64,000 nucleotides of DNA from Haloprofundus salilacus (GTDB lineage: Archaea > Halobacteriota > Halobacteria > Halobacteriales > Haloferacaceae), in contig NZ_CP083723.1 of NCBI RefSeq assembly GCF_020150815.1, forward strand, positions 1,860,001 through 1,924,000. Direction: 5' to 3'. How positions within the stretch are numbered: position 1 is the first letter of the stretch; each line of letters starts with the position of its first letter. Position numbers and translations under genes: made by a program. The notes beneath the pieces were generated by a model. The model saw only the letters and a program-made list of their open reading frames with translations. It was not told the DNA's origin and did no database searches. Positions 1 through 28,808 of this stretch are shown piece after piece.

Positions 1-294
1 GAGCGACTCGCCGCCGACGTCGACGACGAAGAACCACGGTCTGACCACCTCCGCGAGCGCCCCTGGTCGGAGAAACAACTGCCCGTCGAGCAGCATCGCC
101 GCCTGCATGAGGTAGACGCCCTCGTCGTCGTTGACCGAGTGGTAGGCGAACAGGTCGGTCGCCAGCCAGCCGACGACGACGGCGGCGAGAGCAGAGAGGC
201 CGAGGACGCCGAGTACGAACGCCCGACTGCGGGCGGACGACGCGAGGGCGGCGAGAGAGGGTGCGTTCGCGGGGCGGCGGTCCGGCGGCGACAT
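1..294 (-). CDS. N-terminus of a polytopic membrane protein, GT-C glycosyltransferase-like (partial)
   Basis: Only the first 98 codons are present; the gene runs off the left edge. A hydrophobic helix spans residues 25-46 and is followed by NDDEGVYLMQAAMLL (55-69). An acidic cluster just after the first membrane segment, followed by a short amphipathic stretch, is typical of GT-C-fold (ArnT/PMT-like) glycosyltransferases that use polyprenyl-phosphate sugars. The ATG overlaps the stop of the upstream ABC ATPase gene as TGATG, so the two are probably translationally coupled and share the iron-transporter transcript. The GT-C assignment rests on the N-terminal pattern alone and could be wrong; another multispanning enzyme is possible. 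Confidence 0.5.
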   Translation of the reverse strand, partial: MSPPDRRPANAPSLAALASSARSRAFVLGVLGLSALAAVVVGWLATDLFAYHSVNDDEGVYLMQAAMLLDGQLFLRPGALAEVVRPWFFVVDVGGESL

Positions 295-1439
295 CAGCGG
301 TCGACGACGGTCTCGGCCCCTTCGGGGAACCACGAGAGGTCGTGCGTCGCCGCCAGCGAGAGGGCGACGCGCTCGCCCCGTTCGAGGTGAACGTCGTGGT
401 TGTGCATGCAGCTCACCGACTCGCCGGAGTCGAGTTCGATCTCGTATAGCGCCGTCGGACCGAGGTAGCGTCGGGAGGCGACGACGCCGACGCCGTCGCC
501 GTCGGAGTCCGGAGTCGCTTCGAGGTCGTCCGGGCGGACCAGAAGTTCTATCGCCGAGCCCTCGTACTCCGGCGCGAGGCCGTGAATCCGCTCGCGTGGG
601 ATGTCGCCGACGGCAGTGGAGACGACGTCCCGACCGACCGTGCCGCCCAGGAAACTCGCGTGGCCGAGGAAGCTCGCGACGAACCGCGACTCGGGGTGCT
701 GGAACACCTGCTCGGGACGACCGACCTGTTCGATGCGTCCGGCGTTGACGACGGCGACGCGGTCCGACATCGACATCGCTTCCTCCTGGTCGTGGGTGAC
801 CGAGACGGCGGTTACGCCCGCCTCCTTGAGGATGCGACGCACCTCCTCTCGCATCCGGACGCGGAGGTCGACGTCGAGGTTCGAGAACGGTTCGTCGAGC
901 AGTAACACCGCCGGCTCGGGCGCGAGCGAGCGCGCCAGTGCGACGCGTTGCTGCTGCCCTCCGGAGAGTTCGTCGGGATACGAGTCGCGCTGAGCGTCGA
1001 GACCGACGAGGTCCAGCAGTTCGCTCACGCGCGCCTCGCGTTCGGCCTCGTCCCACTCCTTCAGCCCGAAGGCGACGTTCTCGCCCGCAGTGAGGTGCGG
1101 AAACAGCGCGAACTCCTGGAAGACGACGCCGACGCCGCGCCGCTCGGGCGCGCGGAACGACCCGTTTCCGGAGACGACGTCGCCGTCGAGGCGAATCTCG
1201 CCCGCGTCCGGCCGTTCCAGTCCGGCAACGAGCCTGAGCGTCGTCGTCTTCCCGCAACCCGAGGGACCGAGCAGCGTCAGTATCTCGCCTTCTTCGACGG
1301 AGAGCGAGAGGTTCCGGATGACCGTCTCGTCGCCGAAGCGCTTGGAGACGCCGTCGAGTTCCAGCACCGATTCGTCCGAGCGAGTCGACTCCGCCGTCGA
1401 GCGCACCGTCGTCTCGTTGACCATCGTGTTATCGACCAT
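294..1439 (-). CDS. Iron(III)-type ABC transporter ATP-binding protein
   Basis: This 381-residue ATPase should power import through the adjacent permease. Walker A is GPSGCGKT (58-65), the Q-loop is FQEF around 107-110, the signature is LSGGQQQ (158-164) and Walker B is VLLLDEP (178-184). A C-terminal region of about 140 residues resembles the TOBE regulatory domain of the FbpC/PotA group. It is third in a leftward operon after the binding protein and the double permease, the standard order of Fbp/Sfu iron(III) importers. The iron operator in front of the operon supports iron as the substrate. FbpC-like ATPases for thiamine or spermidine are alternatives by sequence alone. Confidence 0.88.
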   Translation of the reverse strand: MVDNTMVNETTVRSTAESTRSDESVLELDGVSKRFGDETVIRNLSLSVEEGEILTLLGPSGCGKTTTLRLVAGLERPDAGEIRLDGDVVSGNGSFRAPERRGVGVVFQEFALFPHLTAGENVAFGLKEWDEAEREARVSELLDLVGLDAQRDSYPDELSGGQQQRVALARSLAPEPAVLLLDEPFSNLDVDLRVRMREEVRRILKEAGVTAVSVTHDQEEAMSMSDRVAVVNAGRIEQVGRPEQVFQHPESRFVASFLGHASFLGGTVGRDVVSTAVGDIPRERIHGLAPEYEGSAIELLVRPDDLEATPDSDGDGVGVVASRRYLGPTALYEIELDSGESVSCMHNHDVHLERGERVALSLAATHDLSWFPEGAETVVDR

Positions 1440-1540: not shown

Positions 1541-3175
1541 TCACTTGACATCGTACCCCTCCTGCGAGACGATGACGAGCATCGAGAGCCCGGAGACGGC
1601 GAGAAGGATGAGCGCCGGCACCGCGGCGCGGCCGAAGTAACCCTGACTGTACGCCGACCAGACGCGCGTGACGAGCGTCTCGAACCCCGTCGGCGCGAGA
1701 AACAGCGTCGCCGGGAGCTCCTTCATCGTCGTGAGAAAGACGAGCGCCATCCCGCCAAGCAGCCCCGGTGCGACGAGCGGGAGCGTGACACTCCGAAACG
1801 CGCCGCTCGGGGTTCGCCCGAGCGTCCGCGCCGCCTCTGGCAGTTTGGGGTCGACCCGGAGGAACGACGCCCGGAGCGACCCGACCGCCTGCGGGAGAAA
1901 GCGGACAACGTAGGCGAACACCAGCAGGTAGAGCGTCTGGTAGACGGGGCGCGCGTAGGAGGTACCTAGATAGACGAGCGCCAGTCCGATGACCACGCCG
2001 GGAACGGCGTAGCCGACGTACGTCGCGCGCTCGGCGAGCGTCGCCACCGTCCCGCGGTGATGAGCGGCGACGTAGGCGACGGGGAGCGCGAACACCGCGG
2101 CGACGGCGGCGGTGGCGGCTGCGACACCGACGGAGTTGAGAACGTACGAGACGTCGAACGCCAGCGTCTCGCTGCCCACGTTGCTCGCTCCGCGGACGAA
2201 CCACGTTCCGAGAATCGCCAGCGGGACGACGAGCGCCAACCCGGCGACCGAGCCACAGAACCCGAGCGCCGGGAGTTTCCACCGACCGAGTCGAACCCGG
2301 TCTGTCGCTCTGCCGCCGCCGTATACCTGTTCGTCGCCGCGGATGCGCGACTCGGCGGCCAGAATCAGAAGCGTCACCGCGACCAGTTGCAGCGACAGCA
2401 GCGCGGCGAAGTCGCGGCCGAAGGAGTTGAACTCGACGAAGATGACCCGCGTGAACGCGTCGAAGCGCATGATGGCGGGCGTCCCGAAGTCCGAGAGCGT
2501 GTACAGTGCCACGAACAGCGACCCGGCGGCCACCGCCGGGCGAATCTGCGGCACCGTCACGCGGCGGAACGCCTCCCACCGGGAGTGGCGGAGCGTCCGC
2601 GCCGCCTCGACGAGCGTCGTGTCCATCGACTTTAGCGCCGCCCGCGTCGTGATGTAGACGTACGGGTAGGTGTACAGCGTGAGCACGAGCGTCGCCCCGA
2701 CGAAGCCGTACAGTCGCGGCAGCGACTCGACGCCGAGCGGCGCGAGTAAGCGCTGGAGCGCCCCCCGCGGCCCGAACGCCGTGACGAACGCGAACGCGCC
2801 GATGTAGCTCGGGATGACCAGCGGCAGCGACACCGCGACGGTCCAGAACTGACGCAGCGGGAGGTCGGTCCGGACGGTCAGGTACGCCAGCGGGACGCCG
2901 ACGAGAATCGACGCCGCGGTGACAGCGACAACCAGCGCGGCGCTGTTGGCGAACACTTCGAGCGTCTCTGGGCGCGTCGAGAGCGCCACCGCCTCCGCTA
3001 CCCCCACGTCGAAGGCGAGTCGGACTAGCCAGACCAGCGGGAGGAGGACGAGAGCGGCTACCGTCGCCGACGCGAGCGACAGACCGAGCGGCGGCGGCGA
3101 CCCGCCAAATGGCGAACTCGAGTCGTCGGCGTCGCTGGCGGCGTCGTCTGTTCCGGGAGCGTGTTCGGCGTCCAT
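1541..3175 (-). CDS. Iron(III)-type ABC transporter permease, fused double-domain
   Basis: The 544-residue integral membrane protein holds two permease halves in one chain, about twelve hydrophobic segments in all. Each half carries an EAA loop that contacts the ATPase: EAARTLRHSRWEAFRR in the first half and EAARTLGRTPSGAFRS in the second. Fused halves are characteristic of FbpB/SfuB/CysW-like iron(III) permeases. An acidic hydrophilic N-terminus of about 25 residues precedes the first helix. It lies 45 bases after the binding-protein gene and 101 bases before the ATPase gene in the same direction, so the three form one transporter. Confidence 0.9.
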   Translation of the reverse strand: MDAEHAPGTDDAASDADDSSSPFGGSPPPLGLSLASATVAALVLLPLVWLVRLAFDVGVAEAVALSTRPETLEVFANSAALVVAVTAASILVGVPLAYLTVRTDLPLRQFWTVAVSLPLVIPSYIGAFAFVTAFGPRGALQRLLAPLGVESLPRLYGFVGATLVLTLYTYPYVYITTRAALKSMDTTLVEAARTLRHSRWEAFRRVTVPQIRPAVAAGSLFVALYTLSDFGTPAIMRFDAFTRVIFVEFNSFGRDFAALLSLQLVAVTLLILAAESRIRGDEQVYGGGRATDRVRLGRWKLPALGFCGSVAGLALVVPLAILGTWFVRGASNVGSETLAFDVSYVLNSVGVAAATAAVAAVFALPVAYVAAHHRGTVATLAERATYVGYAVPGVVIGLALVYLGTSYARPVYQTLYLLVFAYVVRFLPQAVGSLRASFLRVDPKLPEAARTLGRTPSGAFRSVTLPLVAPGLLGGMALVFLTTMKELPATLFLAPTGFETLVTRVWSAYSQGYFGRAAVPALILLAVSGLSMLVIVSQEGYDVK

Positions 3176-3220: not shown

Positions 3221-4381
3221 TCAGAGCACGCCGACGTCGCGCATGAGGTCGACGGTGCCTTCGAGGTCGGCCAGTTGTGTCAGGTCTACCCCCTCAGGCG
3301 GGTTCAACTCGTCGATACGTGGGAGGTCGCCGACGGGGTCGACGCCGGAGACGAGCGGGTACTCGAACGTCTCGCGGGCGAAGTAGTCCTGCGCCTCCGC
3401 CGACAGCAGGTGGCGGACGAAGTTCGCCGCGAGTTCCCGGTTGTCGGTAGTGTCGAGCGTACAGGCCCCGGCGACGTTGAAGATGCTCCCGGCGTCGCCG
3501 TTCGTGAACGCCGTCGTAAGCGGCGCCTCGCCGCGGCCCGCGAGGACGCGCTGGATGTAGTAGTGGTTCGCGAAGCCGACCGATATCTCGCCGTCGGCGA
3601 TGGCCTGACAGACGAGGAACTCGTCGGTGTACTCCTGGACGCCGAGGTCCAGCATCCCCTGCAACCACTCGCGAGTGCGCTGGTCGCCCTTCAGTACGCG
3701 CATCGCGGTGACGAACGCCTGGAACGAGCCGTAGGTGGGTGCCCAGCCGACCTGGTCGGCGAACCGCTCGGCGTCGGGGAAGGCGTAGATATCTCCGGGA
3801 ATGTCCGACGCGGACCACTGGTCGGTGTTGTACGGAACCGTCCGGGCACGGCCGGAGGTGCCAGTCCACTGACCGTCGGGGTCACGGAACTCCTCGCGGA
3901 CGAGTTCGAGCACCTCGTCGGGGAGCGCGACCGTTCGGCCTTCTTCGGCGAGCGTGCCGAGCGACCCGGCGTTGACCGAGTAGAACACGTCCGCGGGGCT
4001 CCCGTCGCCCTCGGTGAGAATCTGGTTGACGAGGTCCGACGAGCCCGCGTAGCGAACCTGCACGGAGAAATCGTCGTAGAGGTCGTCGATGAACTGGACG
4101 AGTTCGCCGACGAGCGCCTCGCCGCGGCCGGAGTAGACGGTGAGTTCACCGGAGAGATCGGGCATCTCCGTCATCGAGGTGCCGCCCTCGATGGACCGCT
4201 CGCCGAACGGCGACCGGCCCGACCCGATCTGGCCGATGGCCTGCGATCCGTTCTCGCTGTCACCGCCACTGCTCTCGCCGTCGAGTAGACCGTTACAGCC
4301 TGCGAGGGCTGCGATACCGGCCGTAACGCCCGTCGCGACGAGGCGACGACGGGTGGGCCGTCCGAAGTCGTTTCGCTCCAT
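3221..4381 (-). CDS. Iron(III)-type ABC transporter substrate-binding lipoprotein
   Basis: The 386-residue protein starts with a twin-arginine signal (TRRRLVATG, 10-18) and a lipobox LAGC with the lipidated cysteine at 29, followed by a Ser/Gly/Glu-rich linker, as in haloarchaeal Tat lipoproteins. The mature part (ELTVYSGRGEALVGELVQ and later ANHYYIQRVLAGRGEAP) matches the family 1 fold of FbpA-like ferric-binding proteins, which deliver iron from outside the cell to the permease. The start is well supported: a TATA-like tatatg lies about 26 bases upstream, with an iron-type operator between it and the ATG. It is the first gene of the leftward operon. Confidence 0.9.
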   Translation of the reverse strand: MERNDFGRPTRRRLVATGVTAGIAALAGCNGLLDGESSGGDSENGSQAIGQIGSGRSPFGERSIEGGTSMTEMPDLSGELTVYSGRGEALVGELVQFIDDLYDDFSVQVRYAGSSDLVNQILTEGDGSPADVFYSVNAGSLGTLAEEGRTVALPDEVLELVREEFRDPDGQWTGTSGRARTVPYNTDQWSASDIPGDIYAFPDAERFADQVGWAPTYGSFQAFVTAMRVLKGDQRTREWLQGMLDLGVQEYTDEFLVCQAIADGEISVGFANHYYIQRVLAGRGEAPLTTAFTNGDAGSIFNVAGACTLDTTDNRELAANFVRHLLSAEAQDYFARETFEYPLVSGVDPVGDLPRIDELNPPEGVDLTQLADLEGTVDLMRDVGVL

Positions 4382-4386
4382 GTGTT

Positions 4387-4402
4387 TTTAGGTATGCCTA
4401 AA
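4387..4402. promoter_or_regulatory. Iron-type operator (DtxR/SirR-like palindrome) of the iron(III) importer
   Basis: Perfect palindrome TTTAGG-tatg-CCTAAA, centred about 13 bases upstream of the binding-protein ATG, between the start and a TATA-like element (about 4405-4411 on the minus strand). A repressor bound here would block initiation. The half-site resembles DtxR-family iron-repressor sites. Identity of the regulator is inferred, not shown. Confidence 0.78.
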
Positions 4403-4429: not shown

Positions 4430-5602
4430 TCAGTCGTCACTCGGTATCGGTCGTTCTGCGGTCCGAGGCGCGTTGAGGGCGTCGAGTGCGTTCAGGCAGT
4501 CGAGCCACTCGCGCATCCGCTCGCCGACGAAGGTGAAGAACGCACCGTTGTTGTATTCGTCCCAGTCGCCGTCGGCGAGTTCGTCCGCGATGGAACCGAA
4601 GACGCCTGCGTACGTCTCACAGCCGTCGCCTACCTCGTCGACGATTTCCCAGAGGTATTCGTTCAGTTCGAGACCCGGAACCTCGTTGTTGAGGTCGTCG
4701 AACGTCGGGCGCGGGGCTTTGTTGTGTTCGCAGAGGGGTCGGCCGTTCACCACGTCCTTGTCGAGCACGTCGGCGGCGCGCTTGAGGAACACGCCCGACC
4801 AGATGTCGTCGAATCGGCCGACGTCCCACTCGTTGTCGTCCATCGGGAGTTGGTAGAACGCCGGGATTATCTCGCGGCGGAAGGCGAGATTCATCGAGCA
4901 GACAGTGAGATACTGGCCCCGGTCGGCGACGAACTCGTCGTCGAAGTCCTCGGCGGCGGTTCGGGTCTGCGCCTGTCCACGGAGGTCGCCGTCCATCAGG
5001 ATGCGCACTGCGTCGAGGTCCGGGACGTTCGTCCACAGCCCCTGGGAGGCGACCACGTCGTCGACGTGGCGGGTGTCGGTCTCGACCGTCTCGTCCATCG
5101 CCGCGTACGGGTAACCGCGGGGGTAGAGTCCGTGTTCGTCGAAGTTCTGGTAGAGGACGTTCACCCACCGCTCGTCGGAGCGGACGCACTCTATCTCGCC
5201 TTCGTACGCCAGATTTTCGAAATGGCGACCGAAGAAGTCCGCTTCGGGATGCGGGAGCGTGTCGTCGTCGATGAAGAAGCCGTACTCGAACTCGTTGGCC
5301 CACAGATAGAGGAGACCGAAGGAGGTCTGGGCGTGACTGGCGGCCGGAATCAGGTGGGCGTACTCGGAGAGACCACGCGCCTCGAACCACGCCTCCCGCC
5401 GACTCCCGTCGAACACCTCGCCGGAGACGCCCTCCTCGTCGAGCATCGTGCGCATCGCCGCCGTGTCGCAGAAATCCTCGGTGACGAGCACGACGTGCAG
5501 TCGGTCGAGGTCGAACCCGTGTTCGCGGGCGTTCTCGAAGTACGCCCGCATGCACTCGTACGCTCGTATCGTCGGGACGATGACGCAGGTGTCGGCTGCC
5601 AT
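4430..5602 (-). CDS. Reversibly-glycosylated-polypeptide-like glycosyltransferase (GT75-like), iron-operator controlled
   Basis: The protein is 390 residues from ATG 5602. It opens with CVIVPTIRAYECMRAYFEN and carries an acidic FFIDDDTLPHPEADF motif near residue 115, typical of nucleotide-sugar binding. A second conserved zone reads NLAFRREIIPAFYQ. This layout resembles reversibly glycosylated polypeptides (UDP-arabinopyranose mutase family, GT75), often named alpha-1,4-glucan-protein synthase in haloarchaea. No signal or membrane segment is seen, so it should be cytosolic. Two iron-type operators occupy its promoter, which is unexpected for this family. A GTG at 5617 is an alternative start; it would put the nearer operator at the same distance from the start as in the other iron promoters. 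The sugar and acceptor are unknown. Confidence 0.68.
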   Translation of the reverse strand: MAADTCVIVPTIRAYECMRAYFENAREHGFDLDRLHVVLVTEDFCDTAAMRTMLDEEGVSGEVFDGSRREAWFEARGLSEYAHLIPAASHAQTSFGLLYLWANEFEYGFFIDDDTLPHPEADFFGRHFENLAYEGEIECVRSDERWVNVLYQNFDEHGLYPRGYPYAAMDETVETDTRHVDDVVASQGLWTNVPDLDAVRILMDGDLRGQAQTRTAAEDFDDEFVADRGQYLTVCSMNLAFRREIIPAFYQLPMDDNEWDVGRFDDIWSGVFLKRAADVLDKDVVNGRPLCEHNKAPRPTFDDLNNEVPGLELNEYLWEIVDEVGDGCETYAGVFGSIADELADGDWDEYNNGAFFTFVGERMREWLDCLNALDALNAPRTAERPIPSDD

Positions 5603-5620
5603 GGTCGTTGCCAGCACGTT

Positions 5621-5636
5621 TTTAGGATAACCTAAA
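5621..5636. promoter_or_regulatory. Iron-type operator, proximal copy, glycosyltransferase promoter
   Basis: Perfect TTTAGG-ataa-CCTAAA palindrome inside a longer A/T-flanked context (ttttt...aaaaa). It is centred 26 bases upstream of ATG 5602, or 11 bases upstream of the alternative GTG 5617. Same consensus as the operators at 4387 and 21843. Confidence 0.75.
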
Positions 5637-5649
5637 AAGACTGCCGGTT

Positions 5650-5665
5650 TTTAGGACAGCCTAAA
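5650..5665. promoter_or_regulatory. Iron-type operator, distal copy, glycosyltransferase promoter
   Basis: TTTAGG-acag-CCTAAA palindrome, centre to centre 29 bases from the proximal copy. It lies in the 102-base gap between the glycosyltransferase and purL. Both genes run leftward, so this site serves the glycosyltransferase, not purL. Confidence 0.73.
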
Positions 5666-21807: not shown

Positions 21808-21823
21808 TTTAGGTGGGCCTAAC
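21808..21823. promoter_or_regulatory. Iron-type operator, distal copy, first siderophore-type binding protein
   Basis: TTTAGG-tggg-CCTAAC palindrome with one mismatch at the outer position, centred about 48 bases upstream of the ATG at 21864. It lies just upstream of the TATA-like tttattg (about 21833-21840). Confidence 0.68.
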
Positions 21824-21832
21824 AATCGACGG

Positions 21833-21840
21833 TTTTATTG
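21833..21840 (+). promoter_or_regulatory. TATA-like element between two iron operators
   Basis: ttttattg centred about 27 bases before the ATG at 21864, consistent with a leaderless transcript. It is flanked on both sides by iron-type palindromes. Confidence 0.55.
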
Positions 21841-21842
21841 GA

Positions 21843-21858
21843 TTTAGGCGAACCTAAA
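21843..21858. promoter_or_regulatory. Iron-type operator, proximal copy, first siderophore-type binding protein
   Basis: Perfect TTTAGG-cgaa-CCTAAA palindrome ending five bases before the ATG at 21864. It would cover the transcription start. The position relative to the start matches the operator of the iron(III) importer (4387-4402). Confidence 0.77.
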
Positions 21859-21863
21859 CGGGT

Positions 21864-23045
21864 ATGCGACGACGAAAGTATCTAGGGATCGGCGCAGGTG
21901 CGCTCGTAACGGCGCTCGCGGGCTGTTCGAACACGTCCGGCGAGTCTGACGAGTCGGGCAAGTCGAACGATTCGCAGACGGAGGGGTCGACGGGAACCGA
22001 CTCGGAAACGGGAACCGCCCAGAGCGAGTCGTACACCGTCTCCATGGCCCCTGTCGGTGACGTGACGTTCGATTCGGTGCCGCAGACGTGGCTCGTCTAC
22101 GAGTCGGGCTACGCAGATATGGGCGTCGCCCTCGGGCAGGCCGACGGTCTGCTCGCCGTCGGTAATAAAGCGCGGTACTACACGCGGTACTACGACGAAC
22201 TTGACGGCGTGAGCGTCGACATGTCGTCCGTCACTCAACTGCTTGGCGAGAGCGCCCAGATAGACAAGGAGCTGTTCTACGAATTGAACGTCGACGTGCA
22301 CCTCATCGACCCGAACTGGCTGGTCAGCGGCTCGGGCTTCGGCTTGGAGCAGTCCGACGTCGACGAACTTCGGACGAACGTCGCGCCCTTTATCGGTAAC
22401 ACCATCTTCCGCCGGACGGACACCTCGTGGCACGATTACCAGTACTACACGCTGTACGAGGCGTTCGAGAAGGTGGCGCAGGTGTTCCAACAAGAGGAGC
22501 GCTACCAGCAGTTCAAATCGCTGCACGACGACTACGTCTCGTCGCTGCAGTCGGAGCTTCCGGCGGAGTCCGAGCGGCCGAACGCACTTCTGACGTTTCC
22601 GGCGGGCAGCAACCTCGACCAGCCTGAGGAGTTCTACCCGTACCGTCTGAGCGACCAGGGGACGAATAAGAAGCAGTTCCACGACCTCGGCATCGGTGAC
22701 GCCCTCGATGGCACCGGCGTCGGCGGGCTCTCGACGAGCGACCGCGGCACCATCGACTACGAGACGATGCTCGAAGTCGACCCCGACGCGATACTCGTGC
22801 GCGGCCACGAGGACAAATCCGCCGACGAGTTCGCCAACACGGTACTCTCGTTCATGCAGCAACACAGCGTGGCGAGCCAACTGACCGCCGTCCAAAACGA
22901 GATGGTGTTCCGCGGCGGCCCCATCTACCAAGGTCCAATCCAGCACCTGTTCACGCTCGAACGCGCCGCGAAGGACTTCTTCCCCGACACCTTCGAGGGC
23001 AATCTGTTCGACAGGAGCGCGGTGTCGGACGTCGTCACCGAGTAG
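21864..23045 (+). CDS. Siderophore/iron ABC transporter substrate-binding lipoprotein (first copy)
   Basis: The 393-residue protein has a short basic N-region (MRRRKYLG), a hydrophobic core and the lipobox LAGC with the cysteine at 21, then a Ser/Asp/Glu/Thr-rich linker. The mature part starts YTVSMAPVGDVTFDSVPQTW, typical of periplasmic-binding folds of the BtuF/FecB cluster that bind ferric siderophores. It would sit on the outer face of the membrane and pass its ligand to the FecCD-type permease at 24487. Two iron-type operators flank its TATA element. It is clearly paralogous to the lipoprotein at 26688, sharing LYEAFEKVAQVFQ and TDYETMLEVDP-like stretches. Confidence 0.88.
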   Translation: MRRRKYLGIGAGALVTALAGCSNTSGESDESGKSNDSQTEGSTGTDSETGTAQSESYTVSMAPVGDVTFDSVPQTWLVYESGYADMGVALGQADGLLAVGNKARYYTRYYDELDGVSVDMSSVTQLLGESAQIDKELFYELNVDVHLIDPNWLVSGSGFGLEQSDVDELRTNVAPFIGNTIFRRTDTSWHDYQYYTLYEAFEKVAQVFQQEERYQQFKSLHDDYVSSLQSELPAESERPNALLTFPAGSNLDQPEEFYPYRLSDQGTNKKQFHDLGIGDALDGTGVGGLSTSDRGTIDYETMLEVDPDAILVRGHEDKSADEFANTVLSFMQQHSVASQLTAVQNEMVFRGGPIYQGPIQHLFTLERAAKDFFPDTFEGNLFDRSAVSDVVTE

Positions 23046-23190
23046 ACGCAGCGAAACGGAGCCATTTCGAAAAGACTGTCCTATCTCGTTCGATTCGTCT
23101 TCGCCGTTCTCGCCGTTTCTCAGCGGTGTGCGACGTTGCTCGGGAGTGCCTGCTCACACTCTCGGGGACGCCGCTCACTCGCCGTCCTCC

Positions 23191-23634
23191 TTACTCGCCG
23201 TCATCAGACGACACGTCGGAGTCAGACAATGCGTCGGAGTCAGACGACGCGTCCGAGAGCGTGTCGACGTTCCGAGAAGCGTCAGGAGCGTCGTTCTCTC
23301 CGGTGGTTCCGTCGCGTTCAGCTTCGCTCGGTTCGAAGACGCTGACGTCCCCGTCGCCGGTGACGACGAGATCGTAATCGAGGTAGGAGAATCCGATGCG
23401 AACCGTCGGCCGCTCGTCCTGATGACGCGGCGCGAGTATCCTGTCGAGCGCATCGGCGTCGAGAAACGTCCGAAGCGGCGGGAGTTCTCGGGGGTCGATC
23501 CCCTCTATCGCCGAAACGACGGTGACTACCGCTTCCGTCGCCGTTCCGTACTCGTCGAGACAGGCCGCGGAAATCGGGCGTCTCGCTTCGGTACCGTCGC
23601 CACCGTCTGTACTGACGCCACCGTCGTTGCTCAT
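23191..23634 (-). CDS. HalOD1-like output-domain protein
   Basis: The 147-residue acidic protein contains AVVTVVSAIEGIDPRELPPLRTFLDADALDRIL, followed by strands VRIGFSYLDYDLVVTGDGDVSVF. This resembles the halobacterial output domain 1 (HalOD1) found at the end of haloarchaeal signal-transduction proteins. A Ser/Asp-rich tail follows. I chose ATG 23634 because the frame upstream of it looks non-coding. It is oriented against its neighbours, between the first binding protein and the permease of the iron locus. No iron operator lies in front, so a part in iron sensing is speculation. Confidence 0.65.
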   Translation of the reverse strand: MSNDGGVSTDGGDGTEARRPISAACLDEYGTATEAVVTVVSAIEGIDPRELPPLRTFLDADALDRILAPRHQDERPTVRIGFSYLDYDLVVTGDGDVSVFEPSEAERDGTTGENDAPDASRNVDTLSDASSDSDALSDSDVSSDDGE

Positions 23635-23879
23635 CTCCGGCCCCCTACCGTGAGACGATCGCTCGCGAGAGGGTAGTGATGTCGAGACCCTTGGCAGCTG
23701 CGTGTCACAGGTGAATCGTCCGTACGTCTCTGGATACTTATATTGAATAGAATGAGCGTCAGAAAAACCGGCAATAACTTCCCCTACAGGCCTATATTCA
23801 CTATCTGTAGTATTTAAGCACTCTGCGAATTTCTGTATTTCTGGTATTCGTCGGACATTCTGTTCAGTCGTGGGAATAG

Positions 23880-23885
23880 TTTTAC
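23880..23885 (+). promoter_or_regulatory. TATA-like element of the DUF7344-like gene
   Basis: ttttac centred about 28 bases before ATG 23911. It supports that start over the in-frame ATG at 23887. Confidence 0.4.
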
Positions 23886-23910
23886 GATGGAAGGCGTAGA
23901 GTGTCATAAT

Positions 23911-24312
23911 ATGATCAAGAACCTCGGTTCACCCACCGAGGAGACGATCGCGTCGGGGATTCGCGACGCACGCGCGGTCGAGCTATTTGACGCGCTGAGC
24001 GATCAGTGTCGTCTTCGGATGGTCGACCATCTCGCCGAGTCGAACGGTCCCGTCGCCCTCGCCGATCTCGCTCAGATCGTCGCTGCGATGGAGACGGGGA
24101 CGCCCGTCGAAGGCCAGTCGGAGGACAGCTACCGGACGACGTATCTCAATCTCTATCACAACCACGTCCCAAAACTTGTTCACGCCGATGTCGTCGACTA
24201 CGACGAGAACCGAAAGACGATCGAACTCGTCGACAGCGCCGAACTCTCGACGCTGCTTCAGTTCGTCGTCGTGGAACGCGGACCGAACGAGGCGTCGAAG
24301 TGCTCGCCGTGA
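23911..24312 (+). CDS. DUF7344-like winged-helix regulator in the iron locus
   Basis: The 133-residue protein reads AVELFDALSDQCRLRMVDHLAESNGPVALADLAQ, a helix-turn-helix-like start, then YRTTYLNLYHNHVPKLVHADVVDYDENRKTIEL. That last stretch carries the HxHxPKLxxxxVVDYD pattern of DUF7344-type predicted DNA-binding proteins. An in-frame ATG at 23887 would add eight residues. It directly precedes the iron operator and permease gene, and it has half the length of the two-repeat protein at 10141-10791. Regulation of the iron genes is possible but unproven. Confidence 0.68.
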   Translation: MIKNLGSPTEETIASGIRDARAVELFDALSDQCRLRMVDHLAESNGPVALADLAQIVAAMETGTPVEGQSEDSYRTTYLNLYHNHVPKLVHADVVDYDENRKTIELVDSAELSTLLQFVVVERGPNEASKCSP

Positions 24313-24317
24313 ATCCT

Positions 24318-24333
24318 TTTAGGCAATCCTAAA
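24318..24333. promoter_or_regulatory. Iron-type operator of the siderophore permease-ATPase operon
   Basis: Palindrome TTTAGG-caat-CCTAAA, five bases after the stop of the DUF7344-like gene and about 161 bases upstream of the permease ATG. The distance suggests a long leader. It lies 49 bases upstream of a small open frame beginning at 24375. Confidence 0.73.
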
Positions 24334-24486
24334 AATCGAAGTTCTTTTGAACTGGCGAGACGCCACTGTGAGACATGACACGTCCGAGAGAGACCGGTAG
24401 GCGAGACCGGAGACGGTGGGCAGGCCGCGGACGGATGTCCCCCGGAACGCTGGTTTCCAGCGGACACCAGAAGGGGTGTTCGACAG
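24334..24486 (+). promoter_or_regulatory. Long structured leader of the iron permease, with a 40-codon upstream frame
   Basis: About 150 bases separate the operator from the permease ATG. A weak TATA-like tcttttga (24343-24350) lies about 27 bases before ATG 24375. From there a 40-codon frame (MTRPRETGRRDRRRWAGRGR...) runs to TGA 24495-24497, overlapping the permease start by 11 bases. It is very arginine-rich and may be untranslated. The leader also has short inverted repeats (ctgg-ttt-ccag and ggcgagacgcc). An attenuator or leader peptide is possible; so is plain noncoding leader. Confidence 0.35.
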
Positions 24487-25644
24487 ATGGCGAGTGACAC
24501 GCGGAGCGGCGAGTACGCTGGCACGGCGACGCAGAGGCGATTCGGATGGGTGAACGCGTCGCTTGTCACGCTCGCGGTCGGGAGTCTCGTCGTCGTCGTG
24601 CTCGGCGCGCTCGTACAGGTGAGTTTCGGCGCGTACTCGATGAGCATCGGGCAGGCGTGGCGGGCGGTGTTCGACCCCGCCGTGTTGACGAACCCCTACA
24701 TGCTCTTGCAGTTCTTCTTCGGCGACGGCGTCGCCGAGGCGGTCGCTGGCGCGTTCGGCTTGAGTACCGCCGCGCCGGAACTGTCCAGAGAGACGCTCAT
24801 CGTCTGGAACATCCGACTGCCGCGCGTCGTCGTCGGCGCGCTCGTCGGCATGAATCTCGCCATCTCGGGGGCGATATTTCAGGCCGTGACCCGAAACGAA
24901 CTCGCTTCCCCGTACATCCTCGGCGTCAGTTCGGGCGCGGGACTAGTGATTCTGCTCACGCTCGTCTTCTTCACGGGACTTGCCGTTTACCTCCCGATTC
25001 TCGCCGCGCTCGGGGGTACAATCGCCTTCATCATCGTCTACGGTATCGCCTGGAAGAACGGGACGAGTCCGGTCAGACTAGTCCTCGCGGGCGTCATCGT
25101 CTCGACCATCTTCGGGTCGATGCAGACGGCCATCTTCTTCTTCGCCAACGACATCGGCATCGTCCAGAGCGCCATCGCGTGGACGACGGGGTCGTTGACG
25201 GGGACCGACTGGGAGCAGGTCCGAATGGCGCTGCCGTGGACGGTGCTGTCGGTGGTGCTGGCCGTCGCCGGGGCACGTCAGTTGAACGTCCTTCTGCTCG
25301 GCGAGAAGACCGCACAGGCGCTCGGGATGTCCGTCGAGCGCGTCCGGTTCGCGCTGTCGGGCGTCGCGATTCTCGCCGCGAGCGCGGCCATCGCCGTCGC
25401 CGGAATCGTCGGCTTCGTCGGCCTCGTCGTCCCGCACATCGTGCGCAACATCGTCGGCAGCGACTACCGGCGGTTGGTCGTCGGCTGCGCATTCGCCGGT
25501 CCCGCGCTGATGGTCGGCGCGGACGTGGGCGCGCGCCTCGCGCTCAGTCCGGCCCAGATTCCGGTCGGTATCGTCACCGGACTCGTCGGCGGGCCGTACT
25601 TCCTCTACCTCATGCGCAAGAAACAGCAGTTGGGTGAAATCTGA
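24487..25644 (+). CDS. FecCD-family iron-siderophore ABC transporter permease
   Basis: The 385-residue protein has about nine to ten hydrophobic helices and the FecCD/BtuC signatures NIRLPRVVVGALVGMNLAISG, GVSSGAGLVIL and GFVGLVVPHIVRNIVGSDYR near the C-terminus, where the ATPase docks. It would homodimerise in the membrane to move ferric siderophores or a similar chelate. The stop overlaps the ATPase start (TGATG), so the pair is co-translated. Its promoter region holds one iron-type operator. Confidence 0.93.
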   Translation: MASDTRSGEYAGTATQRRFGWVNASLVTLAVGSLVVVVLGALVQVSFGAYSMSIGQAWRAVFDPAVLTNPYMLLQFFFGDGVAEAVAGAFGLSTAAPELSRETLIVWNIRLPRVVVGALVGMNLAISGAIFQAVTRNELASPYILGVSSGAGLVILLTLVFFTGLAVYLPILAALGGTIAFIIVYGIAWKNGTSPVRLVLAGVIVSTIFGSMQTAIFFFANDIGIVQSAIAWTTGSLTGTDWEQVRMALPWTVLSVVLAVAGARQLNVLLLGEKTAQALGMSVERVRFALSGVAILAASAAIAVAGIVGFVGLVVPHIVRNIVGSDYRRLVVGCAFAGPALMVGADVGARLALSPAQIPVGIVTGLVGGPYFLYLMRKKQQLGEI

Positions 25645-26576
25645 TGGTGGATACGAACATCTCGGCGGATTCGGAGACGTCGAATCGATCGAACGGATCA
25701 GAGGCGTCCAGCGTGGAAAGCGGGATGGGTGCGGTCGACGCCGCCGCTACCGACGACGCCGCCGACGCGGCTAGCACGACCGATGCGACCGAACTCGTCG
25801 GCGAGGACCTCGCCATCGGCTACCCGACGACGCCGGAACCGGTTGTCGAGTGCGAGTCGGTCGTCGTCCCCGCCGGCGAGGTGACCGCGCTCGTCGGCCC
25901 GAACGGGTCCGGCAAGAGCACGCTCCTCCGGTCGCTCTCGAACCAACTCGAACCCGAGCGCGGTAGCATCCTCCTGGACGGCCACGAACTCCAGACGTTC
26001 GGAACGAAGGAACTTGCACAGAAACTCGGCTTGCTCTCGCAGGAGAACGAAGCGCCTGGCAGCCTCACGGTCGAGGAACTCGTCTACCACGGCCGGTATC
26101 CGCACCGGGGCTTCTTCGAGACGGTCAACGAGGAGGACGAGGCCGCCGTCGCCGAGGCTATCTCGCTTGCAGGCGTCGATCACCTCCGCGACACCCAGGT
26201 CGGCAACCTCAGCGGCGGGCAGAAGCAGTTGGCGTGGATCGCGATGGTGTTGGCTCAGGACACCGACGTCTTGCTGCTGGACGAACCGACGACGTACCTG
26301 GACCTCCACCACCAGTTGCGCGTGATGGAGGTCGTCCGGACGCTCAACCGCGAGCGGGACGTCACCGTCGCCGTCGTCCTCCACGACATCGGGCAGGCGG
26401 CGCGCTTCGCGGACAACCTCGTCGCCATGCGCGACGGCGAACTGTACGACTGGGGACCGCCACGGAAAGTCGTCACCGAGGAACTGCTCCGCGACGTGTT
26501 CCGCGTCGAAGCCACGGTCGACGCCGACCACCCGACTGGACCACACATCTCGCCGCACCAGGCGATGAACGAGTAA
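25644..26576 (+). CDS. FecE/FhuC-type iron-siderophore ABC transporter ATPase
   Basis: The 310-residue ATPase shows GPNGSGKST (Walker A, about residue 84-92), LLSQENEAPGSLTVEELV (Q-loop), LSGGQKQ (signature) and VLLLDEPTTYLD (Walker B). A non-conserved acidic N-terminus of about 50 residues precedes the ATPase core, longer than in most FecE proteins. It is translationally coupled to the permease and probably serves both binding lipoproteins in this locus. Confidence 0.94.
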   Translation: MVDTNISADSETSNRSNGSEASSVESGMGAVDAAATDDAADAASTTDATELVGEDLAIGYPTTPEPVVECESVVVPAGEVTALVGPNGSGKSTLLRSLSNQLEPERGSILLDGHELQTFGTKELAQKLGLLSQENEAPGSLTVEELVYHGRYPHRGFFETVNEEDEAAVAEAISLAGVDHLRDTQVGNLSGGQKQLAWIAMVLAQDTDVLLLDEPTTYLDLHHQLRVMEVVRTLNRERDVTVAVVLHDIGQAARFADNLVAMRDGELYDWGPPRKVVTEELLRDVFRVEATVDADHPTGPHISPHQAMNE

Positions 26577-26632
26577 CGTCACCAGCGTCGAACGAAAGCG
26601 GGCGGTGTAAGATTCTCACTGCACTCCGTGCT

Positions 26633-26648
26633 TTTAGGCGCGCCTAAA
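26633..26648. promoter_or_regulatory. Iron-type operator, distal copy, second siderophore-type binding protein
   Basis: Perfect TTTAGG-cgcg-CCTAAA palindrome centred about 47 bases upstream of ATG 26688, upstream of a TATA-like ttacgtaat. It mirrors the arrangement at 21808. Confidence 0.77.
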
Positions 26649-26658
26649 ATTCGGTGCA

Positions 26659-26667
26659 CTTACGTAA
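26659..26667 (+). promoter_or_regulatory. TATA-like element between two iron operators
   Basis: ttacgtaat lies about 25 bases before ATG 26688, with an iron-type palindrome on each side, as at the paralogous promoter at 21808-21858. Confidence 0.5.
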
Positions 26668-26668
26668 T

Positions 26669-26684
26669 ATTAGGCGGGCCTAAA
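26669..26684. promoter_or_regulatory. Iron-type operator, proximal copy, second siderophore-type binding protein
   Basis: ATTAGG-cggg-CCTAAA palindrome with one outer mismatch, ending three bases before ATG 26688. It would overlap the transcription start. Confidence 0.68.
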
Positions 26685-26687
26685 AAT

Positions 26688-27911
26688 ATGGACAGTAACG
26701 ACGAGAGTCGACGAAGGCGAACAGTTCTGCAGGCAGGGGCAGCGATGACGGTCGGCGCACTCGCCGGATGTCTCAGTGGCGATGCTCCCAGCGGCGCAGA
26801 AGACGCCGCGAGCAGAACGTCGGAGGACGGAGATACCGAGGGAGCCACGGACGAGAGTGCGTCGGAGCGGTCGTACCAGGTAACGATGGCCCCCATGGGA
26901 ACCGTCGAGTTCGACAGTGTGCCGGAGACGTGGGTCCCGTACAAGTCCGGCTACGGCGACATGGGGTTCGCGCTCGGCATCGCCGATGGGATGGTCGGCA
27001 TCGACGACCCCGAGGGGTCACTCCAGTTGCTCCAAGAGCGGTTGTACAGCCAGATACCCGGCTTTTCGGTCGACACCGAAGGGCTGACCGACATCCGATC
27101 GGCCGACGACGCGATAGACAAAGAGGTGTTCTACGAGATAGACGCCGACCTCCACCTGATGGACCCGAACCTCCCGAGAGTGTACTTCGAGTGGGACGAC
27201 GGCGACGTACAGGAGATCTCCGACAACGTCGCGCCGTTCTTCGGGAACTTCATCCGGCGAGCGCGCGACGAAAGTTGGGGCGAACCGTACGAGTCGTACA
27301 GACTGTACGAAGCGTTCGAGAAGGTAGCGCAGGTGTTCCAGCGTGAGGAACGCTACGAGGCGTTCGCATCGTTGCACGACGAGGTACAGGCGAGCGTCGC
27401 GGAAGCGCTTCCGCCCGCCGAGGAGCGGCCGACAATCGCGCTGCTTAACGGTGGCTCTGACCCGGCGAACGGCGTGTTCTACGCGATGGACCCCACCGCC
27501 GAGGGATACGAGATGAAACAGTACCGCGACCTCGGGATTCGAAACGCGTTCGAGGGCGTCGAGACCGGTCAGTACGGCGAGACCGACTACGAAACGATGC
27601 TGGAGGTCGACCCCGAAATCATCGTCTTCCACTGGGGCATCACCTACGAGGCAGAGGCGTTCCGCAGTCGGTTCGTCGACCCGCTGGAGAACGACACCGT
27701 CGGCAAGGAACTGACCGCGGTGAAAGAGGGCAACCTCTACCCCGGTGGGACCGCCGAGCAAGGACCGATCATCAACCTGTTCCAGACGGAGATGCTCGCC
27801 CAACAGCAGTATCCGGACGACTTCGGCGAGTTCCCCGGACTCGGCGAGGTGCCAGAGGAGACGCTGTTCGACCGCCAGCGCGTCGCCGACATCGTCGCCG
27901 GGAAGTTCTAA
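26688..27911 (+). CDS. Siderophore/iron ABC transporter substrate-binding lipoprotein (second copy)
   Basis: The 407-residue lipoprotein has a Tat-type signal (SRRRRTVLQAG, 7-17) and a lipobox LAGC with cysteine at 28. The mature part (YQVTMAPMGTVEFDSVPETW) and internal stretches such as LYEAFEKVAQVFQREERYEAF make it a paralogue of the protein at 21864. Both would feed the single permease-ATPase pair between them, perhaps with different chelates. ATG 26688 is favoured over an upstream frame because it puts the operators in the promoter. The flavoprotein gene follows after 45 bases. Confidence 0.88.
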   Translation: MDSNDESRRRRTVLQAGAAMTVGALAGCLSGDAPSGAEDAASRTSEDGDTEGATDESASERSYQVTMAPMGTVEFDSVPETWVPYKSGYGDMGFALGIADGMVGIDDPEGSLQLLQERLYSQIPGFSVDTEGLTDIRSADDAIDKEVFYEIDADLHLMDPNLPRVYFEWDDGDVQEISDNVAPFFGNFIRRARDESWGEPYESYRLYEAFEKVAQVFQREERYEAFASLHDEVQASVAEALPPAEERPTIALLNGGSDPANGVFYAMDPTAEGYEMKQYRDLGIRNAFEGVETGQYGETDYETMLEVDPEIIVFHWGITYEAEAFRSRFVDPLENDTVGKELTAVKEGNLYPGGTAEQGPIINLFQTEMLAQQQYPDDFGEFPGLGEVPEETLFDRQRVADIVAGKF

Positions 27912-27956
27912 ATCGAAACCGATGACGATTCACGGCGGACCGAACTACGAGAGGAC

Positions 27957-28808
27957 ATGACCGAAACATCGGAGACGGAAACGACAGCCGAGGCTAGCCG
28001 AACAGTCGACGCGTCGGCGACGAACGGCGGCGACCGATACGACGTGCTCGTCGTCGGCGGCGGCGTCGCGGGACTGTGCGCGGCGACGTTCACCGCGCGC
28101 GCCGGACTCGACACCGTCGTCGTCGACGACGGCGGCTCTATCGTCAAGCGGAACGCGCATCTGGAGAACGTCCCCGGCTTCCCGGCAGGCGTCAACTCCC
28201 GCCTGTTCTGCGAGATGCAGCGCGAGCAAGCACGGCGGAGCGGCTGCGAGTTCGTCGACGGTCGAGTGACCGGACTTCGACGCGTCGACGACGGCGGATT
28301 CCGAGCAGAAATCGGCAGCGGTGGAGACGATAGTAAGGATGGCAAAGCCGACAGTGTGGACGCCGATTCGGAACTCGAAGCGACGTACGTCGTCGCCGCG
28401 TCGTGGAGCGACACCTCGTACCTCGATGGAGTCGGTGTCGACCTCCGAGTCGCCGGAAGCAAGACGTACGTCGGCGACGACGGGCTCGGCCGGACGAACG
28501 TCGACGGGCTCTACGCGGCTGGTCGACTGACCGAGCGGTACCATCAGGCAGTCGTCGCCGCCGGACACGGCGCACAGACCGCGATCACGCTCGTCCACGA
28601 CTCGGAGACGCCGTTCTACAACGACTGGATCGCCCCGGAGGGCTACTTCACCGACCGCGGTCGGGAGGTGCCGCCGGGCTGCGAGGAGATAGACGAAACC
28701 GAACGAAAGCGTCGCGAACGGGAGTCGCTGGAGACGATGCGCTCGTTCTTCACCGAACCGCATCCGGATCCGCAGCCGACGCACCCGAGCCTCGTTGACG
28801 ACGAGTGA
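27957..28808 (+). CDS. Thioredoxin-reductase-like flavoprotein without redox CXXC
   Basis: The 283-residue protein begins with a polar leader and then YDVLVVGGGVAGLCAATFTARAG, the FAD-binding Rossmann motif (about residues 29-50). The second FAD stretch, TNVDGLYAAGRLTERYHQAVVAAGHGA, matches the C-terminal TrxB motif. The NADPH-binding domain and the CXXC dithiol normally found between them are missing: about 80 residues rich in Asp/Gly replace about 120. Its place after the second iron-controlled lipoprotein suggests ferric-chelate reduction or ligand release, but this is inference. The C-terminus is long and rich in His/Pro. Confidence 0.78.
   Translation: MTETSETETTAEASRTVDASATNGGDRYDVLVVGGGVAGLCAATFTARAGLDTVVVDDGGSIVKRNAHLENVPGFPAGVNSRLFCEMQREQARRSGCEFVDGRVTGLRRVDDGGFRAEIGSGGDDSKDGKADSVDADSELEATYVVAASWSDTSYLDGVGVDLRVAGSKTYVGDDGLGRTNVDGLYAAGRLTERYHQAVVAAGHGAQTAITLVHDSETPFYNDWIAPEGYFTDRGREVPPGCEEIDETERKRRERESLETMRSFFTEPHPDPQPTHPSLVDDE

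Follow-up and report, generated by a model that had tools for sequence, protein, structure and literature searches.

Several described systems share parts with the locus analysed here. Mycobacteria deliver a furanose via polyprenyl phosphate in their decaprenyl-phosphate-arabinofuranose pathway; to our knowledge this arabinofuranose does not come from a GT75 enzyme, and we know of no iron operator there. In enterobacteria the PmrAB-ArnT system modifies lipid A, and its PmrB component senses iron(III). Dolichyl-phosphate and GT-C enzymes act on acceptors that are membrane-bound or exported. The AglD/AglR/AglS branch of Haloferax volcanii places mannose on dolichyl phosphate, flips it and uses AglS for transfer on the outside, and the environmental factor reported for it in the available part of PMC5744192 is salt, not iron. 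All fhu genes or operons of H. volcanii bear a ferR signal, according to the available part of Sailer et al. (PMC11349517). Among GT75 proteins, MtdL interconverts GDP-L-fucopyranose and GDP-L-fucofuranose with Mn2+; its Arg159 is the proposed attacker of the anomeric carbon and Asp260 the proposed base, and the characterised members named in the accessible part of that paper (PMC9937993) come from bacteria and plants only.

The stretch of DNA analysed (the window) comprises 64,000 nucleotides of the Haloprofundus salilacus genome and contains a GT75/RGP gene in an operon in which every gene lies on the minus strand (Table 1). The order is two operators, GT75, a further operator, the FbpA-type lipoprotein, permease, ATPase and GT-C. 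The GT75 reading frame begins at a conserved ATG at 5602, with a GTG at 5617 as a possible alternative start, ends at 4430, and contains the residues FFIDDDTLPHPEADF. The proximity to an iron(III) importer claimed in the first-pass annotation was borne out, the binding protein, permease and ATPase all belonging to the same operon. The claimed orientation away from purL also agrees with the map: GT75 lies downstream of purL in tandem on the same strand, and the gap of about 100 bp between them holds both operators. The ATPase stop and the GT-C start overlap as ATGA, and the GT-C gene extends past the left window edge (L095:8124-10295, 723 aa in all). Beyond it, on the same strand, follow a perfect operator, a gene for a Gluconate_2-dh3-like protein, whose N-terminus reads to us as Tat-like, and a GMC oxidoreductase gene; a dolichyl-phosphate hexose transferase gene (DPH, matching NCBIfam NF041391) lies beyond the latter in convergent orientation. 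The GMC and Gluconate_2-dh3-like genes occupy L095:5625-7855, with their perfect operator at L095:7866. GMC genes near the module recur in other genomes in differing orientation, and the substrate of the oxidoreductase may bear on the module glycan.

Table 1. Features of the GT75 operon, with positions in the window.
Feature	Position	Strand	Basis
GT75/RGP-family protein, predicted NDP-pyranose mutase, 390 aa	4430..5602	-	PF03214, MtdL homology, model fold, active-site residues
FbpA-type iron(III)-binding lipoprotein	3221..4381	-	PDB 7w3w, E 1.8e-65; NHYY motif
ABC permease, fused double type	1541..3175	-	PF00528, two stretches
ABC ATPase	294..1439	-	PF00005 and TOBE_2; stop overlaps GT-C start
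GT-C membrane glycosyltransferase with DUF7846 (PMT/ArnT/AglS-like), N-terminal part	1..294	-	Profile match; model of orthologue
Iron-type operator TTAGGATAACCTAA, nearer GT75 ATG	5622..5635		Perfect TTAGGNNNNCCTAA palindrome
Second iron-type operator TTAGGACAGCCTAA	5651..5664		Perfect TTAGGNNNNCCTAA palindrome
Iron-type operator TTAGGTATGCCTAA before iron-binding protein gene	4388..4401		Perfect TTAGGNNNNCCTAA palindrome

The GT75 product had been described as a nucleotide-sugar enzyme of the reversibly glycosylated polypeptide type, and this assignment held. The Pfam RGP profile PF03214 matched with an E value of 2.3e-16 (60.4 bits, cut-off 23.8), and the closest solved relatives were MtdL (chains at E about 2e-21) and rice UAM2, with about 25% identity to MtdL and the plant relatives. 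An AlphaFold model (57 sequences, pLDDT 85.8) matched MtdL (7yua) with a Z score of 38.6 and an rmsd of 2.8 over 356 residues and rice UAM2 (8cid) with a Z score of 27.9, the next structure scoring 14.6. In all 57 orthologues the autoglycosylated Arg159 of MtdL corresponds to R162 in a PRGYPY motif, Asp109-111 (DXD) and His287 to D112-D114 and H293, and Asp195 and Asp260 to D195 and D266; substrate-binding Arg257 corresponds to R263 in 56/57, the remaining sequence reading X. Two MtdL positions are replaced throughout the 57, Asp87 by His90 and Gln229 by Met237. Rice UAM2 has Ile at the Gln229 position in the alignment, and Ser replaces Asp87 in the active plant proteins AtRGP1-3, as stated in the available part of PMC9937993. 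Judged from these replacements, Asp87 and Gln229 do not define the GT75 family and the protein is not assignable to the MtdL subtype; because both residues differ, the sugar and nucleotide cannot be read off from MtdL, nor is furanose formation assured.

Since the closest characterised relatives, MtdL and plant UAM, are NDP-pyranose mutases, we regard the protein as more likely to be an NDP-sugar mutase than a sugar-transferring glycosyltransferase. The earlier label of glycosyltransferase should probably be corrected in this sense. Homology and model likewise make a cytosolic mutase or a self-glycosylating protein more likely than a polymerising glycosyltransferase, and we consider it probable that the enzyme forms an NDP-furanose. 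As a separate observation, one haloarchaeal genome encodes a second PF03214 protein (L118, G010:C2:1525556-1526527; 451.9 bits, E 1.1e-135) that fits the Pfam RGP profile far better than GT75 of the operon does; no perfect box was found in the 12 kb fetched around its gene.

Both operators that the first-pass annotation had placed before GT75 proved to be perfect palindromes. The palindrome is common to iron-uptake genes, as in a DtxR-type iron regulon. The complete genome (3.73 Mb) contains 13 perfect TTAGGNNNNCCTAA sites, compared with 0 for the reversed control pattern, and 8/13 lie in the window. Five of the latter sit in a second iron cluster at 21.8-26.7 kb, where fhu-type genes carry the operator box; this cluster (window 21809-28808) encodes siderophore-type binding proteins, a FecCD/FhuB-like permease, an ATPase and an FAD-dependent oxidoreductase. 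Further perfect operators were seen at G000:C1:684487-684535 and at C1:1788978, the latter about 380 bp downstream of an open reading frame that to us has a Dps-like look. The DPH gene is preceded by a one-mismatch operator, TTTGGCAAGCCTAA, and the DPH-type variant TTTGGNNNNCCTAA has only two copies in the genome, one of them before DPH. Two proteins of the genome contain a strong, nearly full DtxR-family domain, and we infer that a regulator of this family binds the operator.

Conservation was followed in two samples, a named-genome scan that used the best 80 of 119 GT75 orthologue loci and a class-wide draw of 145 haloarchaeal genomes searched with the profiles PF03214, PF25230 and NF041391 (matches over cut-off). 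Some genomes occur in both samples, as with G081 and L015, so the counts are not independent, and all genome counts are unweighted by phylogeny. Among the best 80 of 119 loci the operator upstream of GT75 was perfect in 74 and carried one mismatch in five and two mismatches in one. The 1.01 Mb covered by the same 80 loci contained 222 perfect boxes, compared with 0 for four permuted palindromes. A script assigned 80 of these boxes to GT75, 72 to the iron-binding protein gene, 31 to DPH and 18 to a gene of the LPG_synthase_TM family; the 21 left unplaced include some at siderophore-type binding proteins.

The class-wide sample gave the same picture. The operator was perfect in 19/19 of the lowest-scoring or divergent GT75 copies, and before 96 further copies (95 genomes) it was perfect in 87, had one mismatch in 8 and was missing in 1. 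Over the same 96 upstream stretches, 29 permuted palindromes yielded 0 perfect sites, and an average of 0.28 stretches held a site that deviated in no more than one position. Relative to the GT75 start codon, the median start of the nearest operator was -31. The double operator of the window is uncommon, 9/96 stretches having two sites when one mismatch is allowed; one site is usual. Proximity of orthologues to such operators was a check set in advance, and its outcome was strongly positive: at least one GT75 gene with an operator (at most one mismatch) was present in 115/115 GT75-positive genomes. In one draft genome, G021, there are two GT75 copies (C38 and C62), and the C38 copy lacks an operator in the stretch examined.

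Operators also precede partner genes. Among 40 of the 115 available DPH genes, 26 of which were chosen because they lie on a different contig from GT75 or at some distance from it, the operator was perfect in 17 and had a single mismatch in 23. In most of the 40 the distance from the operator start to the probable start codon was 41 to 48 nt; the DPH gene of L157 has a perfect box farther upstream. The LPG_synthase_TM gene carried an operator in 27/29 cases (18 perfect, 9 with one mismatch) within the best 80 of 119 loci. Of the two further glycosylation genes with the distribution of GT75, GT-C and DPH, the latter has its own operator. Perfect boxes (3 to 23 each) were also found in the 12 module-negative genomes examined, which indicates that the box marks a regulon wider than the module alone; the reversed control pattern gave 0 to 4 sites in the 18 genomes scanned for boxes.

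PF03214, PF25230 and NF041391 over cut-off were each found in 115/145 genomes, and the three genome sets were identical. Matches to the NF041391 glycosyltransferase family below the cut-off occurred in 145/145. The 30/145 genomes without the module are scattered within genera, and G022, of the window's own genus, is without GT75, GT-C and DPH. Because the sets are identical and the absences fall inside genera, the three genes are gained or lost jointly. No more than 12 kb separates GT75 from GT-C in 113/115 genomes; in the other two they are on separate contigs of draft assemblies. In a phylum-wide draw GT75 was present in 34/246 genomes, every one in the window's own order. H. volcanii has all three families.

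Gene order was compared over the best 80 of the 119 loci. An iron-binding protein gene lies downstream of GT75 in 79/80; the exception, L051, is also the locus whose GT75 box has two mismatches. GT-C lies downstream in 78/80, and in L026 and L090 the clusters are shifted such that it would fall outside the fetched flank. The permease (46/80) and ATPase (34/80) were found less often in these clusters, so GT75, the iron-binding protein and GT-C form the constant core. Within the fetched flanks DPH was seen in 32/80, and an LPG_synthase_TM gene (PF03706) stands just upstream of GT75 in 29/80. A gluconate-dehydrogenase-like subunit was encoded by 104/115 module-positive and 5/30 module-negative genomes and is a frequent, not an obligate, companion of the module. 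FbpA-like proteins were present in 11/12 module-negative genomes examined; since they occur without it, the module is dispensable for the importer as such.

The partner proteins point to the cell exterior. GT-C matches PF25230 (DUF7846) and weakly PMT_2. A model of its orthologue from L021 (38 sequences, pLDDT 85.7) gave Z scores of 22-26 with OST subunits, Pmt4, AglB and ArnT, and of 14-18 with the mycobacterial arabinosyltransferases AftA/AftB/AftD/Emb. Its first outer loop carries the acidic motif N-(D/H)-D-E, presumably catalytic, in 78/79 cluster members from the best 80 of 119 loci. DPH scored 405.1 bits against NF041391 (cut-off 375) and, by its family name, would load a hexose on dolichyl phosphate. 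The iron-binding protein is of the FbpA type; its NHYY motif, the paired tyrosines of which we take to bind iron, is present in 80/80 cluster members (best 80 of 119 loci). As a heavily N-glycosylated acceptor this protein is disfavoured, sequons being few (median 1, best 80 of 119 loci), and this scarcity leaves an acceptor role for it unsupported. Heavy O-glycosylation is likewise disfavoured, since Thr and Ser are in general not enriched in the linkers (together a median fraction of 0.16 in the 49/80 proteins where a script could define a linker). In the N-terminal part of these proteins (window 3221-4381 and orthologues), many have in common a recurring segment between lipobox and FbpA fold that resembles IGSGR...GGTSM-EMPDL and was present in most of 15 linkers inspected.

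Taken together, GT75, GT-C and DPH very likely act in one pathway, all within the iron regulon, and the locus probably encodes an iron-repressed, dolichol-phosphate-dependent module for extracytoplasmic glycosylation. When iron is plentiful, a DtxR-family repressor would occupy the palindrome, at around -27 to -31 relative to the start codon. Leaderless haloarchaeal promoters have their TATA/BRE elements near -31, and because the operator sits where these would be, blocked access of TBP/TFB is the simplest reading of repression. The repressor would silence GT75, GT-C, the ABC importer with its iron(III)-binding protein, and also DPH, which lies elsewhere; all module genes would be expressed together once iron is scarce. 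GT75, with Mn2+ and with nucleophilic attack by its invariant arginine, would then convert an NDP-hexopyranose to the furanose form, and DPH would move the furanose hexose onto dolichyl phosphate. The LPG_synthase_TM-family transmembrane protein may help to turn the dolichyl-phosphate sugar across the membrane, where GT-C would pass the sugar to an outside acceptor; the S-layer protein, a lipid or the importer's lipoprotein are candidates.

This reading suggests that haloarchaea with the module respond to iron exhaustion by altering the sugars on their surface. The idea that a glycan is made or modified at low iron, raised in the first-pass annotation, is thus supported in essence through the operator and the partner genes. 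A more specific version, which we put forward tentatively and hold to be rather doubtful, is that in iron starvation most haloarchaea remodel the outer glycan with hexofuranose via dolichyl-phosphate-hexofuranose and that the co-transcribed FbpA importer depends on this change to capture iron(III); such a system would be a low-iron archaeal counterpart of metal-controlled ArnT modification, with a mutase (GT75) and a transferase (GT-C) as its enzymes. As a point against the module reading, in the part of the H. volcanii iron-starvation proteome available, Table 1 has no recognisable GT75, GT-C or DPH, and it reports HVO_1859 (UPF0104) up 11.6-fold and HVO_0655 (GalE) up 12.7-fold (PMC11349517). 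Their induction is a tempting link to the module, to which either may or may not belong.

Other explanations were weighed against this glycosylation module. GT75 might make no furanose; it could be a protein that glycosylates itself on arginine, or a conventional glycosyltransferase of the cytosol that feeds DPH and GT-C. Both activities exist among GT75 members, according to the accessible part of PMC9937993, and an invariant R162 together with the replaced Asp87 and Gln229 would suit such a protein, yet D195, D266 and the metal ligands needed for MtdL mutase activity are all present and the fold follows MtdL along the whole chain, so that we consider this explanation unlikely. An iron-sparing swap, in which the Mn2+-dependent GT75 replaces a nucleotide-sugar enzyme that fails at low iron, would fit the requirement of GT75 enzymes for a divalent cation and not FAD (available part of PMC9937993). 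It leaves the shared distribution and operators of GT-C and DPH unexplained, however, and no iron-dependent counterpart of GT75 was identified; we regard it as very improbable.

A chance association, in which housekeeping glycosylation genes happen to lie in the operon of the iron importer and under its operator but have no iron role, would be in keeping with the capacity of conserved operons to carry genes along and with the FbpA-like proteins that occur without the module. Against it, GT75 stands first in the operon behind its own operator, DPH keeps an operator even at distances of tens of kb or on a different contig, the LPG_synthase_TM gene has one in nearly every locus that carries it, and in the best 80 of 119 loci 34 clusters in which no permease was found retain GT75 and GT-C. 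Coincidence is for these reasons a poor explanation. Slightly less probable still is a soluble or excreted sugar chelator, such as a glyco-siderophore or sugar acid, made with the help of the GMC oxidoreductase and the gluconate-dehydrogenase-like subunit. The perfect operator before this pair in the window's own genome, the tracking of the subunit with the module and the service of the GT75 enzymes MtdL and Hyg20 in antibiotic biosynthesis (accessible part of PMC9937993) would all be consistent with it. No scaffold-building enzyme was found among the module genes annotated, however, and the acceptors of dolichyl-phosphate and GT-C enzymes are membrane-bound or exported. The glycosylated siderophore-like chelator that had been suggested earlier is not favoured, the obligate partners being membrane glycosylation enzymes, which suggest dolichyl phosphate as the carrier and the outside of the cell as the site of action.

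If the glycosylation module works as proposed, an iron-linked dolichol-phosphate pathway kept or lost as a block, and present in 115/145 haloarchaea, would tie the archaeal envelope to metal acquisition. DUF7846 and archaeal GT75 would both gain a function, and the module suggests an archaeal route to NDP-furanose via a metal-dependent mutase. All parts belong to known families. Our search of the open-licence literature, mostly by titles and abstract starts, returned no published iron-regulated haloarchaeal glycosylation, and by title and abstract start no haloarchaeal galactofuranose pathway; the combination of a dolichol-phosphate route and GT75 in an iron regulon and importer operon was not found in the literature searched.

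The locus resembles each of the described systems in part. With MtdL, Hyg20 and plant UAM/RGP the GT75 protein shares the whole-chain fold, the DXD motif, the Mn-binding His, the autoglycosylated Arg and the catalytic Asp (compared with the available part of PMC9937993). It differs in its low identity and the Asp87 to His and Gln229 to Met exchanges, and its gene stands in the operon of an iron importer and has membrane glycosylation genes as partners, whereas its kin work in plant cell-wall formation or come from an antibiotic cluster. The module would follow the same logic as AglD/AglR/AglS, yet consists of different genes, with a GT75, iron-type operators and a GT-C that carries DUF7846. 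Its GT-C fold is like that of mycobacterial AftA/B/D and Emb. With PmrAB-ArnT it would share an ArnT-type GT-C (Z 22) under metal-responsive control; in contrast to that system, the sign is opposite, expression being expected at low iron, and the module has a DtxR-type operator and dolichyl phosphate and involves no lipid A. The FerR/Idr/TroR regulons of haloarchaea place a similar palindrome before fhu-type importers, and to these the module would add a glycosylation route.
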